Shown here piece after piece: positions 13,565-40,949 of a stretch of 64,000 nt of DNA. The notes under the pieces are model-generated. The model was not told the DNA's origin, made no database searches, and saw nothing but the letters and a program-made list of their open reading frames with translations. Both the position numbers and the translations under genes were made by a program. Where the stretch lies: the NCBI GenBank assembly GCA_002189035.1, contig CM007992.1:2356001-2420000 (forward strand), written 5' to 3'. This stretch comes from Utricularia gibba. Lineage: Eukaryota; Streptophyta; Magnoliopsida; Lamiales; Lentibulariaceae. Numbering within the stretch: the first letter of the stretch is position 1; the number at the start of each line of letters is the position of its first letter.

Positions 13565-13786
13565 CCAAATCGCCTATAAGGATCGAGCGCTAATAAACCT
13601 CAAGGCCACACGGGCGTGGTTTACGCATAAACCACACCCGTGTGGCCTTGAGGTTTATTAGCGCTCGATCCGAATCACCTTAAGGATTGAGCGCTAATAA
13701 AAAGGCCACACGGGCGTGGTTTATACGTAAACCACGCCCGTGTGGCCTTGAGGTTTATTAGCGCTCGATCCTTATAGGCGATTTGG
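13565..13786. repeat. Large nested palindrome / foldback structure
   Basis: The outer arms 13,565-13,623 and 13,728-13,786 are perfect 59-bp reverse complements. Between them lies a second palindromic arm pair. Bases 13,580-13,623 pair with 13,628-13,671 (44 bp, one mismatch, 4-bp loop), and 13,684-13,723 pairs with 13,728-13,771 with small differences. All arms share the motifs 'atcgagcgctaataaa' and 'ggccacacgggcgtgg'. A further half copy follows at 13,785-13,803. GC content is far above the flanks. It has no coding capacity and could be a foldback/MITE element or a hairpin RNA source. Bases 13,346-13,564 show nothing else. Confidence 0.92.
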
Positions 13787-26419: not shown

Positions 26420-29400
26420 AAAGTGATATAGTTGTTGTTACCTTTAACAATCACTGGTGCATTCACAGCTCTTATGTTATTTGAAACGGGAAAAGTTAAC
26501 CGTGTAGATGCAGGTGTAGTGGTAGCCTTTGTATTCTGTACAAAAAAAATTGTTAGCTAGGAACATTATTTAATAGTGTATAATAAGCAAAGTAAGCTTA
26601 GTTACCCGCAATTTTTTTTCTTCTTATGTTGCTCTGCAGGCTGATGTTGAGATGCTGGCCGTTTCCCCTTTGTAGCAACCTAAAAAAAGACATACATTTT
26701 GTATACCACACAAAATTTTTGGAATCATAAGTTTTAATATAACATACCTGATCTGTGGAACCCAATGTTGCTATTTGGTTGGTAGTTTCTACTTGTGGTG
26801 CTGGATCATCTGTGGGAACTAGAGCATCATTTCCAACTTGTTGGTTTACAGTGCTTTCTTGAGTTTGCTATGGCATGAATGAAGAACAATGTTAGCGATA
26901 AATTGAATAAAAAAAATGTGTATAACAAACGGTGAAGAAAGCTTACAGAATGCTCTTGGTTTTCTTGTAGCTTCTTGCAAGTTCGTTTGTTGTGGCCAAC
27001 TTGTTGGCATGAGCTGCATTGGTTGGACTCCCTTGTTAGCCCTTGTGCTCGGTTCGGATTTTTAACTGGGGGAGGCTCTTCAGGATTGCGTTTCCTTGCC
27101 TTTTTTGGCCTACCAGCACCTTTTGCAATTTGGGGGTAACGAAGAAGGAACAGCAGAATGCTTCCATAGATCTTCACTAGAAACACATCCGATTGAGTGT
27201 TGATATTGGCTGATCCAAGCACTTGTCTTGTAGCACTCATCAATATAGTTTTCAACCTTATGACCTTTACGCCATATTGCAGCCACCGCATGAAAACATG
27301 GAAATGAAGTTAACTTCCAAGACCCACAACTACATGTTTTTTCTAGTAAATTGACAGTTCTAGTCATGTATGGACCAACTACTTGATAGTTGTTCTCATC
27401 GCTCCGCATTGCAAAGTATTCTGTTGCATCATCCTCTAATTTTTCCAACCAAGATTTTATCCTGGGACATAACTGGCATTCCCATTTTAAACATTGAGTC
27501 CTTATGCTATCAATCCGAATCATCAACGAATTTCTAATGCCCTCTAACAATTGGAAGATAGGCAGTTCACGTGCTTCAAGTAACATAGAATTAAAACACT
27601 CAGAGTAGTTGTTCAAGAGGGCATCACACTTAGAAAATGGAGAAAAAAAATGCCTTACTCCATTTTGGTGGATCCCTTTTTTGAAGCCATTTATATGCAT
27701 CATGAAATTTTTCTTTCATCTCATCCATGTGATGCTTCCACACTTCCACCTGTGATGATCTAGCTGCTACCCACACCAGTTTTTTAACTGCCATACCAGT
27801 GAACCCTACCCTTTTCATATTACCGTGCAAGTGCCGAACACAAAAACGGTTTTCTGCTTTAGGTAGTAACTCTTCAAAGCATTCAACTAATCCCTTTTGT
27901 TTATCGGACATGAATGTCCAGAACTTCCCATTGCCAACTTCTAAATCCTCTTTTAGAAGTTCAATGAACCACCTCCAGTTGAAAAAATTCTCCTTCTCTA
28001 CTACTGCAAAAGCATAAGGGAAAACAGATTTATTTGCATCTAGACCAACAACAGTAAGTAATTGACCACCAAATGGCCCTTTCAAGAAGCAACCATCTAG
28101 TCCAATGAATTTACGACAATCGTTTTTTAAAGTTCTTCTTAATGGCTCCAAAACATATTTAAACTCCCTGGAATTTTTTTTTCTGCAGCATTTGTTTCAC
28201 CAGTTGTCTTCAACACAATAGTGGAGTCCGGATTGGCAACTCGTAGCTCACCTAAGTAACTTCTACGTTTGTTCCATTGCTCACGTGCTGTCCCACTAAG
28301 TGCTGCTCTAGCTGCTACTCTACCACGGTGAGCCTGCGCCTTAGAAATATCCACCTTTAAGGTCGCCACAACATGCTTCCTAAAATCTTGCGTTGACACT
28401 TTGGGATGTTCGGCAACAAACTTAGCATACTCTGTACCTAACCACCGTGATTTCATTGACATCAGCTTACGCAGCCTACCACAAGCAGTGTGCTTCTCAT
28501 GATATGATTTCACAGTCCATCCTTTGTCGTTTTTCGTCAGTGAAACATTGATCATCCACTTACATGCTTTGACCCTGCATTATGCCGCCAACCGTTGACG
28601 ATTGTTGGTCAAAAAAATGATGTCCTTCCCATTCTTAAAGTTGTAGTTTTCAATTACCATCTTTGCTTCCTATTTACTACTAAAAATAAGGCCCTTTTGT
28701 AGAACATGATTGGCCATTTCTGTCTTTGAGTTGAACCTTCTAACCTTGGCTTGGCATCCTTGCTGTAACTCATCTTCATCACTATCTAAACTATCAAAGT
28801 CTTCATCTTCAGTAACCATACCAACCTCATTATCTTCAAAGATATTAGGCATACTTTTTTTTGTAGCTGTAGATGTCTGTTGAGAGGTAGCACCTTGCCC
28901 CACGAGAGCCTCACTTGTTGTATTATGCTTCTCAAACACATTTAACTCATCCCTCCAAAATTCTAAATCTGAACCACTTGACTCATCTTGTTGTTCAATT
29001 TCGTCTATTGACTTGCTTTTTCCTTTTCGACAATGGCACCTTATAGCATTATCTGTGAACTTACAGGCTGAGCCATGATCGGTGTTATCCTCTCCAATAC
29101 AACCTAAAAGAATATTATCTTATGAAATTTAGAAAAAAAATTCATAATGTGAATTTAGGAAAGTTACTCTATAACTAACCATTTTTCCAACCTCTAGAGC
29201 TTCTTTTCTCAGCCATCTTTTTGTGTTTCGGTTTAGTTGAACAAGAACTCTCTGCTAAAGGATTTAGAATCTTTGGTTAGTATTCTTTCATTTGTAATTA
29301 TCACTGAAAATGTAAACATAGCTTTCATAGTCTTACTTTTTGTACATGGTGGCTTACTTCTAGCAGATTTGTCAATCTTTTCAATCACCACATCCGTCAC

Positions 29401-33794: not shown

Positions 33795-34162
33795 ATTAGT
33801 GTAAATAATCTCATAATTAAATTATATAAATATATATACATAATTTACATATCAAAGATTAAATCTATTTTTTTATATAAAATAAATGATTCAGAAAAAA
33901 ATCGAAGTATTTTTCGTCAACTTTAGTTTTTGAATTAACTGTATCCCATACACTTCCAGAAATACAGTAATCCGGAAGAGTTATGTAATATCTCCATTAT
34001 GCACTCTTCAAGAATCACTATAATTCGGAGGAGTTTTACAGTTTCATCATAGTAAGGAAAATATCACTAATCAAGCATTCCTTCGATTAAGACCATAGTT
34101 AATACAAGAAAACCATGTAAATGTTTGCTTCAAACAAAATCACCTAGTGCAAATATCACAAA
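33795..34162. repeat. Left terminal inverted repeat of the MULE
   Basis: About 368 bp, starting 'attagtgtaaataatctc' and ending 'caaatatcacaaa'. It pairs with 39,416-39,782 with few mismatches, including the shared 'ttcgtcaactttag'-like and 'aatccggaagagttatg' segments. Confidence 0.92.
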
Positions 34163-34466
34163 TAAATAATAGAGTTGAAATATTACTCTAAAATAACGAA
34201 TACATTCATGCTAGACATATAGGTTTACACACAAGGATGTTTATTTTTTATGCCTAGAGAAAAAACTCTTTACTTTATCAAACCTAGATTTTTTACCTCG
34301 TTCACTTGGTGTGGTAGAGAAACTGTTCTCATAGCTAGCATAGTCCCGTTGTGTCGCTGGATAATGTAGCGATGATCTTGGTAGCACATCTTCCTGACCT
34401 CAATCCGGTTGAAATGATCTTGGTAGCATATTCTTGACTAGATTATGTAGCAAGATTTTGATCATG
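34163..34466. other. Non-coding segment between the left TIR and the transposase end
   Basis: No coding motif is visible. It would hold the 3' untranslated end of the minus-strand transposase. A direct repeat of 'gatcttggtagca' occurs near 34,374 and 34,418. Confidence 0.4.
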
Positions 34467-37035
34467 TCAACCTCTAGTTCGTGTAGATTTTTGTGTTTGG
34501 TAATCCATTGGCATTGCAAATCGAGTCGATTGAGGTCTACCTACACATACTTCCTTTTTGCGGGCAGGGTCATGCACTAATGAAAATGGTGCCTGTGGCC
34601 ATTTATCCTCTGATCCTAGTGGTTGAATTTGATTCTCGTAGATTCTAATTTGCTGATCTAGATGCAACATAGGATTGATGACATCTCTGGGATCAATGTT
34701 AACCATCCGGCATGCCTATACACATTGAAATATAAGTAAAAACGTAAATATAAAGGTGAGTGTATATAATGAAATTAGCAGATCATATACCTGTTGTGCA
34801 TGAGAACACGGTATGCCAAAATTTTACCACTTTCTACACTTACATGTGTCTTAAGCAACCATGATGATGAGTTTCTTTTCTTTACCATTTTTCCTACGAG
34901 TAGTAACCAAAACCTTTTTTTGTGCATAATCAACTACCTTTATTGATGCATGAGGAATCGGTTTATCCCAATGTGCATATAGCTTGTGCGGTTGATTAGC
35001 AAAAACAATGTGTGATGAATGTTGGTCAAGTGCGTCTTTATATCTTGTGGAAAAATAGTGCTCACATTGTGCAAATGTTGCCTACATATATAAACAACAA
35101 AATTACATAAGTAAATGTAACTCCTTTTATTTTTGTAGTATTGTGTCACTCAACTGTGCTAACGTGCATAAGGGTTGATGTCTTGCTCCTTTTAATACTC
35201 CATTCATGACTTCAACTTGATTTGTTGTCAACGTACCACACCTATATGATAGTTATAGGCATCAATCCAAATTGCATGGTTGATATATAACTATTAGTAA
35301 ACATACCTTGCTCCTCCGTCGTGTGACAATATCCATGATTCAGGTTGTAACTTATTTAAATAATCTCATGCTTCTGGATGAATTGTATAAATTTCTCCCA
35401 TGTAGAACCTCCATTTACTTACGGATGTTGCATATACAACTTTCATAAATAGTTGCCTCATCTGTGGATATTTCCCATATTTTCCAAGAAAATTAGAACG
35501 TAAATGACGTATGCAATAACGGTGTGAACCTCCATATTCAGGCATGAATGCCCTTATTTTGGATGTTGTGATTTGTATAGAAGGACATCTATCTGATATA
35601 ACACAACATGGTCTATTACCGACAATATGTCGCTCCAATAGTCGAATAAACCAACTCCAAGATTCATCATTTTCATTGTCCACAACTGCAAAGGCAATGG
35701 TCAAAAGAAGACCAGAGGTATCCACAATAACGGCAAATAGCTTGTGAGAATATTGTGAATAGAGATGGGTAGCATCCACAGTGATCACTGATCGACACCA
35801 ACGGAATGCCTGAATGCATTGTCCAAAAAACCAAAAAACATACTTTAATGTCTTTGTGTCACTGATTTTCGGTTGCCTATGTTGATACTCTACAACAGTG
35901 CCAGGGTTTTGTAGCTGCACTTCTAATAAGAACTGAGGAAGAAGGCGAACAGATGACTCCCATGTCTCATAAACAACTTCAAATCCTTTTCTCAAGCTGT
36001 AGCATGCTCGATAATACGAGATACCATATCCTGACTTCTCTTTAACCACTTGTTGAATAACTTTGGCTTTCGTACCAATATCAACTTCAAGCAAAGGTCT
36101 TGCACGTTCCGCGATGTACAATGGAGTAATATTTCGATGAGACAATGATTGTGAACCTAGACATGTACAAGTGTGTGGCTCTTCAATACCTGTTATTTTC
36201 CAGATTGCATTATGTGTGAAGTATGCACAACGAATCCTCCATTTACATCCTTGCTCCTTCATCTTATAGCAAAGGTATTCAACATACATCCCATCTCGCA
36301 CTTTATACGATTTAAATTCACAACCAATTTTGAGACTGTATTCCACCACATCATTATTGAATGCTTCATTTGTTGCAAATAGTTGATATTTGTAGAATGG
36401 ATAGGACACTGAGCTAATGGGATTTGAGATATTTCCAAAATATAGATCTTCATCTAGTATGGTATTTCTGATAAATGTAGGAGGTGCCCAAGATATATCA
36501 TCAACATTAGTTGTCTCCAATTGACAGAATCCTTTTCCCCATCTTCTTCCTCGTTTATCTCCTCGTCTTCACCTATTGGCTCATTACCTTGTACATCATA
36601 GTCACTATCGCAATCTTGCAAATCATCAAATAGAATGTCATTAGAGTCCAATTGATCATGAATATTATCCTCATGTAAGTCAACATCACACCCCACACTC
36701 AGCGCTTCCTTTGGAACTTGATCCACGAAAACATCAAATCCCATTTGTGCATGAGTTGGACTGAAAGCATATAGTAAATCATAGTCAGAGGTAATACCCA
36801 AAATTCGTGTACAACGAGAAGAAGAGTCATAAAATTGAACTCTTATTTGAATATCAAATTGGGTTGGATCTATATCACATATTGAACATAATTCGTCTCG
36901 TAGATAATTCAATGACATCGTACCATCGAAGCTTTGAATGCATAGTGGTGGCATATCATATGCTCTGTAATCATTAGGATACACAATCATATTACCTTCA
37001 TAAAAGATTTTGGCAATGATCGTAGTCGAATCCAT
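34467..37035 (-). pseudogene. MULE transposase of the long-TIR element
   Basis: The minus strand starts at Met 37,035 (MDSTTIIAKIFYEG) with an N-terminal domain and acidic linker to about 36,520. A frameshift near a ggggaaaagg run leads into the next frame. That frame carries a MuDR-type DNA-binding domain (CKWRIRCAYF, about 36,240) and the MULE core (35,800-35,500; VITVDATHLYSQY, NENDESWSWF, VISDRCPSI, HRYCIRHLRSNF). Further pieces are ILSHDGGARYGTLTTNQVE near 35,330-35,220 and a SWIM finger near 34,860 (CKCRKW, then a stop, then PCSHAQQ). A small exon after a GT-AG intron (RMVNIDPRD, 34,706-34,467) follows. Key acidic residues (D in VDA, D in SDR) remain, but the frameshift and the stop in the SWIM finger suggest it is inactive. 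Confidence 0.9.
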
Positions 37036-38140
37036 CTTCTAACCTACAACAACAAAAATGAACTCTCCAATGAAACACCAAGAATGACGATGAGTGAGTG
37101 TGGGATTCATAGAGGGACAATGCATTTATGATGATGGAAAACACATGTTAGGTAGGGTAGTGATATCAAGTCATTCAGTGTATTTTTTTAATGTGTGGCT
37201 TGCATGCTTTATCTTTACTTTACTCTTTTTATAATTACATCATAATTTAGAATAAATGATACACAAAAACATTTGATATGGTCAATCATGTACACTAAAG
37301 CTTTTGTTGGGAAACAACATCTTTGAGTGTTACTTAGATAACTAATTTAAGCAACATGTTCTAAAAGATGAACATCAATGTGTTTAAACACTGCTACATA
37401 TGTACAAGTGGTTAGATGTGTTTAAGTGCTGCTTGTTATTAGTAATAATCGGTTTCGTATGTATAAGTATTCATATGTAGGACCCGGATGTGCTTGGGCG
37501 CTGCAAGTTATTCATAAGCAGCGCCCGAATGTGCCTGGGCGCTGCTAAATATTCATAAGCAGCGCCCGTATGTGCTTCGGCGCTGCTAAGTATTCATAAG
37601 CAGTGCCCGTATGTGCTTGGGTGCTGGTAATTATTCATAAGCAACAGCCAGATGTTCCTGGGCGCTACTACATACGCATAAGCAATGCACATAGACCTCC
37701 GGGCGTTGCTTATAAATAGTAGATGCACCTAGACCCACTCTTATGGAAACTATGTAATTGTATTGAGTTATGCAGTATCAAAATAACAAAACACCGACCC
37801 GCTCTTCTGGACTGCAAGTAATCCATAAGGGTTATGCAGTTTCGACACAAAACACATGGGAAGCATCAACAAACAGGGGTGAAACCTACATTTCTTAATT
37901 CTTTCTCTATATTTACCTCACGAACATTTACCCAGCCAAAATTACTTGGTTCCCTTCATCGTTCACCAAGTGCACAACGTGCGACACCGATTCTCAGTGG
38001 TATCAAATAGATCTTCGAAAGGTAATTTCTAAATCACTGATTACTTCTCAGTTTCACCATTCGCACTACGTTTGAATAGATTTTTTCTGAACCATGCTAG
38101 GGTTGAAATGTGTTCCTTGATTCTGTATTTTTCAGTTAAA
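37036..38140. promoter_or_regulatory. Shared spacer between the two divergent MULE genes
   Basis: Both genes point away from this ~1.1-kb region, so it must hold both promoters if the element was ever active. It contains the 41-bp hairpin array (37,470-37,715). A possible 5' leader intron of the plus-strand gene ends at 'tttttcag' just before its Met at 38,141. No TATA assignment was attempted with confidence. Confidence 0.5.
37470..37715. repeat. Six-copy 41-bp tandem repeat with internal hairpins
   Basis: The phrase 'ttcataagcag' (or a close variant) recurs at 37,470, 37,511, 37,552, 37,593, 37,634 and 37,675, exactly 41 bp apart. Each unit carries AGCAGCGCCC followed ~11 bp later by GGGCGCTGCT, so every copy can form a GC-rich stem. 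The outer copies are more diverged. The array is GC-rich in AT-rich surroundings and lies between the divergent MULE genes. It lacks the unique spacers that would make it a CRISPR array. Confidence 0.93.
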
Positions 38141-39348
38141 ATGGTTGATATATTCCGTACTAAATACGGCATTCCACATGAATATTCACTTGTGGTACCC
38201 AGTGGTCGATCCACTTTAGGGATGGATTGACCCCGTGAATATGAGGGAGCGACGGTAATTTCAATGAAAGTATTTGAAGTTGGTTTGAAATTTCCTCTTA
38301 ACCCATTTTTTATCCAATTACTCACCCATCTAAATCTTCCACTTGGTGCTCTAACACCTTCAGCTTTTCTTATGGCCTTTACTTTCCTAGAATTTTGCAA
38401 TAAAGAAGGAATTGAACCAACTGTAGTTCGTTTCCTTTGCATTGTGCGTGTAAAGAATGACCCTCAAACTAGTGGTTGGTATTTTCAAACTTACAGTTAC
38501 AAGAAATTACTCTCTGTGGCACCTAAAGCTTTTGCTAATTAGTATAAGTATAAAATCCTTGTTATACCATCAACTTATGCTAATTGGGCATTTCCATTGT
38601 CATACCTGGGAGCCCATGCTGTAAAAACTGATCTTGTATTTAAGTTCCTCCCAAAAGAGGAATACGAGGATATGATGAGTCGTCTTCAGCAAAAGAATTA
38701 TCATTGGCAACAAATAAAAACACTCTCCACATCCCATGTGCTTAGGAATGTTCCAGGTAATGTTTGGTTTTTCATTAATGCTCTTTGACAATAATTACAA
38801 ATATTTGGGGAGTTCCGGAATGGAGTCGGGCAGAGGAGGAGGCAAGATGGGGACATAGAATATGGAGAGCACAACAACAATCTGATGAAGAAGGTGAAAA
38901 TGAGGAGATGGAGGAAGAAATCGAGGAAGGTAGTACCATGCTAGACATTCCAACTTATTCTGAGGTAGAAAACCTACGAAGAAGAGTGCAGGAAAATGAA
39001 TGAATTGCTGAAGAACTCAAGAATGTCAGAGAGGAATTGGTCACCCTTAAGAATGAGGTGCAAGCTTTAAGAAAAGAAGTAGAAAATTTGAAGAATGACT
39101 AAAAGATCCAGAAGTCAAAAGGGGGAGCTTCTAATGCAATGAATACAAGGTTACAAAAACAGTTGGATAATGCTAATCATCTACTAAAAGAAAAAGAAGG
39201 GCAGTTCTTTACATACAAGACAACATTTCAAGAGTTGAATGTGCCCCCTAAAACGATTCCAATTCCAATTCAAGTAGTTTATCCTGAAGAACATGCATCC
39301 CATTCTAAGAGTCGAGGAAGTAGAAAGAGAAAAGAAAAGAAGTGGTAG
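38141..39348 (+). pseudogene. Second gene of the MULE: 'gypsy-type transposase' domain plus coiled coil
   Basis: From Met 38,141 the frame reads KYGIPHEYSLVVPSG, then GLKFPLNPFFIQLLTHLNLPLGALTP and FLEFCNKEGIEPTV. This is the pattern of the plant family labelled 'putative gypsy-type transposase', found in many plant TE-associated proteins. It continues to about 38,755, where a donor ('ccag|gtaatg') suggests an intron. The second part (about 38,812-39,348) is acidic, then coiled-coil (ENLRRRVQENE, EELKNVREELVTLKNE, EVENLK), ending in a basic SRGSRKRKEKK tail that could be a nuclear signal. Four in-frame stops (38,228, 38,540, 39,001 and about 39,100) occur with no frameshift. Its function is unknown. 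It may be a MuDR-B-like accessory or a captured gene. Confidence 0.72.
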
Positions 39349-39415
39349 AATGATGGTTGATATGTGATTTTCATATTGCACTTTTGCATGTATCAAGTAT
39401 TAGAAGTGACTAATG

Positions 39416-39782
39416 TTTGTGATATTTGCACTCGATGATTTTGTTTGAAGCAAACATTTACATGGTTTTTTTGTATTAACTATGGTCTTAAGCGAAGGAA
39501 TGCTTGATTAGTGATATTTTCCTTACTATGTTAAAACTGTAAAACTCTTCCAAATTATAATGATTCTTGAAGAGTGCGGAATGGAGATACTGCATAACTC
39601 TTCCGGATTACTGTATTTCCGTAAGTGTATGGGATACAGTTAATTTGAAAACTAAAATTGACGAAAAATACTTCGATTTTTTTCTAAACCATTTATTTTA
39701 TATAAAAAATGAATTTAATCTTGGATATGTAAATTATGTATATATATTTATATAATTTAATTATGAGATTATTTACACTAAT
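39416..39782. repeat. Right terminal inverted repeat of the MULE
   Basis: Reverse complement of 33,795-34,162 with scattered substitutions. The homology stops at 39,782 ('acactaat'). Confidence 0.92.
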
Positions 39783-40949
39783 AATTTAATTATACAAATG
39801 TTTATATATAATTAACTATAACAGGGTGTTATTTTTTTGTATTTGTAAATTATTTAACAATTCATTTGTTATTGTTACATATTTTATACTATTATATACA
39901 ATACTATGTAATTACATATATTAATCAACGAAATTAGGTTTTCTTTGAAAATAGACAACTAAAAAATTCAATATACCATGTATATACACTAACATGTCAA
40001 TGTATTTGAATGAAAAATGATTTTCCTTTAATGGTTTATTTTCAAGATGGCCAAATTACAAAGAATTTTTGAAAGATAGTCATGTCTCAAATTTCAGTGG
40101 AGAGAGATGATCATTTCTCAAATTAACTCCGTGTTAAATAGATAATATCCCTGTCCAAAAAGTGGATTTGCAGAATACCTTTCATTTTAAAATATTAGTT
40201 AAATACCTCTGTTTGAATATTTAATTATTTTTCTTATATAAAAATTTAAATAAATACATATATTGTATATAAAATATTTTTATACATTAAAAATAATAAT
40301 TAATATAAATTAAATTATTTTCAAAATATAAATACCTAATAATAAAATTTCGTATATTACGTAATATGATAGTCACTTCTTATGTATATTTTAATAAAAT
40401 TAAAATAATACATTGTTACTATAATATTTATTAAATTTTTTTAAAAACTTTTTAAATATATACTTATGTATATCCACATCCAATGTGTAGACATAATTGA
40501 ATACTCTTGTTACTTGTATATGCTTTATATACTATTAGAATTGATATCTTTCAATGTAGTTTAATATTTATAAAAAGTATTCAACATTATATATTATTTT
40601 TAAATTTGTATGCAATATTATTTAATTTACTAAAATATAAAAAATAAAAATAAAAATATTTTTAATTAAGTTATTATAAAAGATTTTTGTGATTGCACTG
40701 AACAAACTCATTTAAAAATGTAATAAAACTGAATCAAAGTATTATTTAAAATAAATAAATATATATATATATATATATATATTGATAAAGTATACTTAAT
40801 TAATTTTAATTTATCCAATACAAAATTATTTTTTTATTAATTTCTCTCACTAAAAAAAGTATTCAGCAACTATAAATAAAAAATGGATATTCTTCAAAAC
40901 ATTTTGAAAGTATTTGGCAAAATACTTTTTTGAAGAAGGCTATTATGCT
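39783..40949. other. Very AT-rich spacer
   Basis: No gene is recognised. A dinucleotide (AT)n run lies at 40,759-40,782. Several poly-A/T-rich stretches give no coding or repeat signal. Confidence 0.45.

Follow-up and report, generated by a model that had tools for sequence, protein, structure and literature searches.

Within a 64,000-nucleotide stretch of the Utricularia gibba genome (assembly GCA_002189035.1, contig CM007992.1, positions 2,356,001 to 2,420,000; hereafter the window), we analysed a Mutator-like element (MULE) in which a transposase gene on the minus strand is paired with a divergently transcribed second gene on the plus strand. This second gene, gene 2, encodes the Pfam domain PF04195 (Transposase_28, TRP28). 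The window element is a defunct member of a MULE family, truncated at its left end and carrying an internal deletion, and gene 2, judging from its sequence, is a once-working gene of the element that was inherited with the transposase. By analogy with other transposon systems, we put at about even the chance that the gene 2 product was a dimeric DNA-binding regulator acting on palindromes, with an anti-silencing and/or transposase-assisting role.

A MULE transposase gene and a divergent TRP28 gene in one element

The initial annotation of the window had described a minus-strand MULE transposase and a plus-strand second gene, divergent and both enclosed by inverted repeats, and the domain matches bore this out. 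In a Pfam scan the minus-strand gene matched PF10551 (E 5.9e-15, 55.9 bits against a cut-off of 27.6), identifying it as a MULE transposase, and gene 2 matched PF04195 (E 1.4e-7, 32 bits against a curated cut-off of 26.2). The window copy has both a MULE transposase domain and terminal inverted repeats, in place of the structure of a Retand retrotransposon; no gag-pol was present in the open reading frame (ORF) lists of the element. A Pack-MULE was ruled out, since the transposase gene is present and the second gene recurs across the family. Both genes are broken: gene 2 has four in-frame stops (Table 1), and the transposase is interrupted by a stop at 35366 and by a shift of frame near 36520, the latter deduced from the related copy C413a, whose frame runs on unbroken there.

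The described make-up of gene 2 was largely confirmed, with an acidic stretch, a coiled coil (heptads identified by eye) and a basic tail following the PF04195 region, and related tails were found in C451, C2a, C2b and C413a; the "gypsy-type transposase" of the initial annotation is a database label only. Transposase_28 was the sole match above cut-off in the Pfam scan of the gene 2 pieces, which returned no plant mobile domain (PMD) and no VANC-type domain. A comparison of gene 2 with the protein database gave 2288 candidates, none at E<=0.001, and a search of solved structures with a 9-row profile gave one match, to an SMC4 chain, at E 0.12.

Both genes recur in other copies of the family

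A search of the 100-Mb assembly with the inner repeat DNA, as the initial annotation had suggested, returned 22 rows, two of them the window's own arms. Further copies with both genes in the same divergent layout, which the initial annotation had named as support, were found. In C413a (15.2 kb) the two repeats enclose a transposase and gene 2 arranged as in the window copy, and C507 (at least 10.7 kb) likewise retains two repeats and the transposase, together with a gene 2 tail; part of the length of C507 is explained by DNA of a PIF/Harbinger-like TRP28 element inside it (C507:363874-366667, locus L010). Two deletion derivatives were also recovered: C375a, of 1651 bp and with a 10-bp target duplication, retains the end of gene 2, and in C304 the transposase is joined to a gene 2 tail fragment. 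Three elements of about 960 bp, with outer repeats of ~350 bp and one inner arm of the family's terminal repeat (L014 in C1a, L015 in C412 and L016 in C244), are likely a non-autonomous subfamily.

The 12 TRP28 copies of the gene 2 clade grouped with support 99/99 in a tree of 29 rows, for which the bootstrap had yet to converge fully. A divergent MULE lies next to eight of these 12, namely the window copy, C255, C2a, C413a, C451 and C2b, plus C414a and C413c, where the MULE is a partial piece (in C413c a single 23-residue match). Eight members of the clade, then, lie by a MULE, the arrangement that the initial annotation had proposed looking for; the other four are considered below.

Selection on gene 2 and the transposase

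Two subfamilies, {window, C413a, C451} and {C2a, C2b, C255}, were compared. Between them, the ratio of non-synonymous to synonymous substitution rates (dN/dS) of the TRP28 region was 0.24-0.38 in all nine pairs, with pN>=pS in 0 of 200 bootstraps for each, and that of the transposase parts was 0.12-0.31. Within subfamilies the TRP28 region gave 0.61-0.80, as expected from decay, and the transposase parts gave scattered values from 0.19 to 1.59. Distances for gene 2 and for the N-terminal part of the transposase were correlated (r 0.948, 15 non-independent pairs). From the low ratios between subfamilies and the correlated distances we conclude that selection preserved gene 2 along with the transposase. 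The initial annotation had left the second product as either an accessory protein or captured cargo; the recurrent layout and the purifying selection support a gene that travels with the element as an accessory, and a capture unique to this copy was not supported.

Genome-wide arrangement of TRP28 and MULE places

Each genome search scored the best candidates only, and the counts are therefore lower bounds. At least 128 rows were returned for PF04195 and 82 for the gene 2 query, and at least 150 for PF10551 and 112 for the transposase query; these were merged into at least 151 TRP28 and at least 171 MULE places, and neighbourhood was limited to 5 kb. Twenty-one TRP28 places lay within this distance of a MULE domain, 14 divergent and seven downstream on the same strand, with none upstream on the same strand and none convergent. 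With 1000 local shifts as the orientation null, about 1.3 were expected per class (maxima 7, 6, 6 and 6). Eight of the 14 divergent pairs fall outside the six of the gene 2 family; their MULEs were recovered through the transposase query at 36-48% identity in six cases and through PF10551 only in two.

A second TRP28 gene in the family

Six of the seven downstream same-strand cases belong to the window element's family (C413a, C507, C255, C2a, C2b and C304), and in C413a and C507 this further TRP28 gene, gene 3, lies between the terminal repeats. Gene 3 of C2b matched PF04195 with 43.9 bits. A sister relationship of genes 2 and 3 was rejected by an approximately unbiased test of the one-clade constraint (p-AU 0.004; the grouping was chosen after the first tree). 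Gene 3 grouped instead with the TRP28 genes of PIF/Harbinger-like elements (lineage D) and one further lineage, with support 100/99, in a tree with many fragment rows and long branches meeting, in which the finer order is unsure. Some MULEs thus carry two TRP28 genes, from different TRP28 lineages. The family plan runs from a terminal repeat through gene 3 on the transposase strand, the transposase, a shared upstream region and the divergent gene 2 to the other terminal repeat, and degenerate palindromes of 30-31 bp occur in its non-coding DNA.

A palindrome concentrated around family members

The region upstream of both genes holds an array in which each 41-bp unit carries a 31-bp palindrome (Table 1). 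The 271-bp array, used as a DNA query, found one other place in the genome, in C413a. A degenerate form of 30-31 bp, GGGCRYTRCTTA-N6/7-TAAGYRRYGCCC, gave 35 matches in eight of the 12 family loci, located in the region separating the genes, in the direction of the left end and downstream of gene 2, and none in 60 shuffles of those loci. Among the controls, there were three matches in the remaining 56 kb of the window, none in the loci of TRP28 lineages B and D, two in seven loci fetched for their terminal-repeat match and one in one control shuffle. Two weak matches 100 bp apart were noted outside the element, at window positions 13612 and 13712.

Genome-wide, two patterns gave 29/33 and 20/19 strand matches, compared to 0/1 and 1/1 for the reversed pattern. 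Of the 58 distinct places listed, 41 were within 8 kb of family members, a zone that makes up 0.4% of the genome, and 45 were within 13 kb. A first, stricter pattern allowing up to 2 mismatches had been discarded, as its 25 matches per strand were barely above the 20 of the reversed control.

Proposed role of gene 2

The layout, its recurrence in the family, the past selection on gene 2 and the concentration of the palindrome at family members are observations; what follows on the mechanism is a proposal. The TRP28 region would contact DNA, as is predicted for the TRP28 protein of Retand retrotransposons (PMC11963269), and the coiled coil would make the product a dimer, which we propose because it is the simplest fit to a palindromic target. 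The dimer, as the probable binder, would occupy the palindromes, with their two-fold symmetry, both in the shared promoter and close to the element's ends, and would keep the element expressible, as VANC does for VANDAL elements, and/or help the transposase. Several results weigh against this proposal. None of the family copies read is intact: all have stops or breaks, where the initial annotation had named intact frames as support. No MULE was present in the 5.2-5.8 kb read upstream of the clade members C98, C375c, C451b and C414b. The palindrome pattern behind the 35 matches was derived partly from the loci where they were counted, no match occurred in four of the 12 family loci (C451, C98, C451b and C414a), and 17 of the 58 places (13 at the 13-kb limit) lie away from known members. 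Single-sequence structure prediction of the window TRP28 region gave no usable fold (predicted local distance difference test, pLDDT, 37.7).

That gene 2 came into the window copy by chance, as a capture or nested insertion, and served the element in no way is highly improbable. The genome is rich in TRP28 genes, as the PF04195 rows attest, and for 130 of the at least 151 TRP28 places no MULE domain was listed within 5 kb, as such an origin would allow; however, it does not account for 14 divergent MULE neighbours against none convergent or upstream on the same strand, for the past purifying selection and the distances correlated with those of the transposase, or for the retention of the gene 2 end in the deletion derivative C375a.

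Other readings accept gene 2 as part of the element and differ on what it did. Its product may have been mainly a transposition co-factor that gathered the element ends via repeated sites, like TNPA of Spm, without anti-silencing. Besides the palindromes near gene 2, C2a, C2b, C255 and C507 have others between the transposase gene and the left end, which together with the TNPA parallel would suit such a co-factor; but the palindromes found in the window copy and in C413a lie between the genes, on the promoter side, a better fit to expression control, and we regard a pure co-factor as rather unlikely. We also consider it improbable that the transposase was what bound the palindromes and that gene 2 acted otherwise, for instance on chromatin via its acidic and basic stretches. 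In keeping with that idea, the C304 MULE copy, for which the sequence read contains no more of gene 2 than a tail fragment, has palindromes nearby, and at C328 a MULE has a single palindrome and none of the listed TRP28 places within 5 kb. However, C304 may have inherited its palindromes, because it is a deletion derivative, and the shared pattern matches mostly outside the terminal repeats, where MULE transposase sites usually lie.

Extent and state of the window copy

The features of the window copy are collected in Table 1. The ~367-bp inverted repeats of the initial annotation are real, matching at 93.5% across 368 columns (33795-34162 and 39416-39782), but their boundaries were wrong: the terminal repeat is ~700 bp in sister copies, with lengths of about 620-810 columns in C507, C413a and C375a. 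The right arm therefore extends to ~40129, since the repeat in C375a, C413a and C507 goes outward to about 700 bp, and the left arm stops short at 33795, having lost about 340 bp up to its true end. No convincing target-site duplication, which in MULEs is of 8-11 bp, was found at the ends first given for the window copy (33795/39782); among relatives, a perfect 10-bp duplication was found at C375a and none at five others tested.

Compared to C413a, the window copy lacks about 5.1 kb, and compared to C507, 2.4 kb, both intervals ending at ~34182. The alignment with C413a stops at about this position and resumes 5.1 kb on, and the equivalent point in C507 is about 2.4 kb inside the left repeat. 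We infer from this break, with which C507 agrees, that the window copy is internally deleted; the missing interval holds gene 3 in both C413a and C507. A further MULE domain was observed elsewhere in the window, at 27825-28106 on the minus strand (PF10551, E 3.6e-14).

Table 1. Coordinates of the element's features in the window
Feature	Position	Strand	Remark
Whole element remnant	33795..40129	.	left end truncated, internal deletion at ~34182
Left terminal inverted repeat, inner part only	33795..34162	+	outer ~340 bp missing
Deletion junction	34182..34183	.	interval with second TRP28 gene absent from window copy
MULE transposase pseudogene	34467..37035	-	in pieces; homologous pieces in sister copies
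Transposase, remaining pieces	34467-34715, 34851-35081, 35127-35252	-	
Transposase, core with PF10551	35366-36519	-	
Transposase, N-terminal part	36516-37035	-	
Array of five 41-bp units	37423..37693	.	region upstream of both genes
Palindromes in array	37496-37526, 37537-37567, 37578-37608, 37619-37649, 37660-37690	.	
Gene 2, first part, TRP28 (PF04195) region	38141..38761	+	stops at 38228, 38540
Gene 2, second part after presumed intron	38809..39348	+	stops at 39001, 39100; has the acidic stretch, the coiled-coil heptads and the basic tail
Right terminal inverted repeat	39416..40129	-	initial annotation ended at 39782; relatives extend to ~40129

TRP28 in other elements

TRP28 genes were also observed in other settings. 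A PIF/Harbinger-like element (L062:4764 to L061:291; C2:2200763-2205628) has a DDE_Tnp_4 match (E 7.3e-11) and a TRP28 gene on the same strand, and its ends have the repeats GGGCRCGTTTGGTTG and a possible TAG duplication. Among 39 copies of the upstream part of this element, a TRP28 place lies downstream on the same strand in 17, upstream in one and on the opposite strand in none. A phosphatase identity for the tail of lineage D found no Pfam support and was dropped. For lineages B and C a Retand context was sought, and no contiguous gag-pol was present in the stretches read. L033 and seven similar loci (lineage B) form a young repeat family with TRP28, the L033 copy having a coiled coil and a basic tail; at L063 a second TRP28 frame was seen upstream, by eye and without Pfam support. 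At L034 (C460:107201-107479), the frame of a TRP28 gene is open over 280 residues and is followed on that strand by a coiled-coil frame; about 7 kb away, on the other strand, is a gag-like ORF, and no contiguous pol was found.

A broader view, which we hold tentatively and consider doubtful, is that plant transposons share TRP28 genes as an accessory kit, passed among MULEs, PIF/Harbinger and Retand elements and encoding sequence-specific anti-silencing or regulatory factors for palindromic or tandem repeats of their own element. If so, the Retand antisense ORF would derive from a DNA transposon. The elements described here offer a DNA-transposon home for TRP28, for which the question of how it arose in Retand elements is described as open (PMC11963269). 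They also provide MULEs with one more candidate system for anti-silencing or regulation, for which the palindrome is a defined DNA target, and put in doubt the "gypsy type transposon" label of PF04195 for genome annotation.

Comparison with known systems

Like maize MuDR, with mudrA and mudrB, the element is a two-gene MULE with long terminal repeats. In contrast to the divergent arrangement here, the two genes of MuDR converge, and mudrB is not known as a TRP28 gene. The proposed second protein acting on repeated sites near the element ends resembles TNPA of Spm/En, whose sites are 12-bp; Spm/En belongs to the CACTA superfamily, however, and TNPA is an unrelated protein.

Closer in layout are the MULE groups with an antisense PMD gene (MUDR, MUDRAVI2, MDR and MULE-Monocots; PMC6446971), which likewise combine a transposase, a second gene on the opposite strand and long terminal repeats; their target duplications are of 9-10 bp, and the one at C375a is of 10 bp. 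Unlike these, the second gene of the window element has PF04195 and no PMD match, and some copies carry two such genes. VANDAL elements, too, are MULEs in which the transposase is accompanied by an accessory gene. The targets of their VANC proteins are short motifs, arrayed in tandem in the non-coding DNA of the protein's own family (PMC5735166), comparable to the repeat array described here; gene 2 differs in having no VANC-type match in the Pfam scan, and the motif here is a 30-31 bp palindrome. The VANDAL system is further marked by sequence-specific loss of methylation through its accessory protein, whereas for gene 2 an anti-silencing action is a proposal.

The TRP28 domain is best known as an antisense ORF of Retand (Ty3/gypsy) retrotransposons, reported for 97% of clusters (PMC11963269) and 23% of elements (PMC6317226) and also described in PMC7264820, and it is said to be confined to flowering plants (PMC11963269). 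The two settings share the Pfam domain, the antisense position relative to replication genes and tandem repeats often nearby (PMC11963269), whereas the host there is a retrotransposon; the likeness to Retand rests on the Pfam domain and on these descriptions. No report of TRP28 with MULEs was found in the open-licence literature, and the passages of PMC9055855 and PMC10343146 that name the domain are silent on MULEs. A MULE with an antisense PMD gene is known (PMC6446971), while TRP28 as the second gene did not turn up in that literature. A nested origin of TRP28 from another transposable element is disputed in PMC11963269, from a lack of similarity to other known transposable elements. The elements described here would be transposable elements with such similarity.

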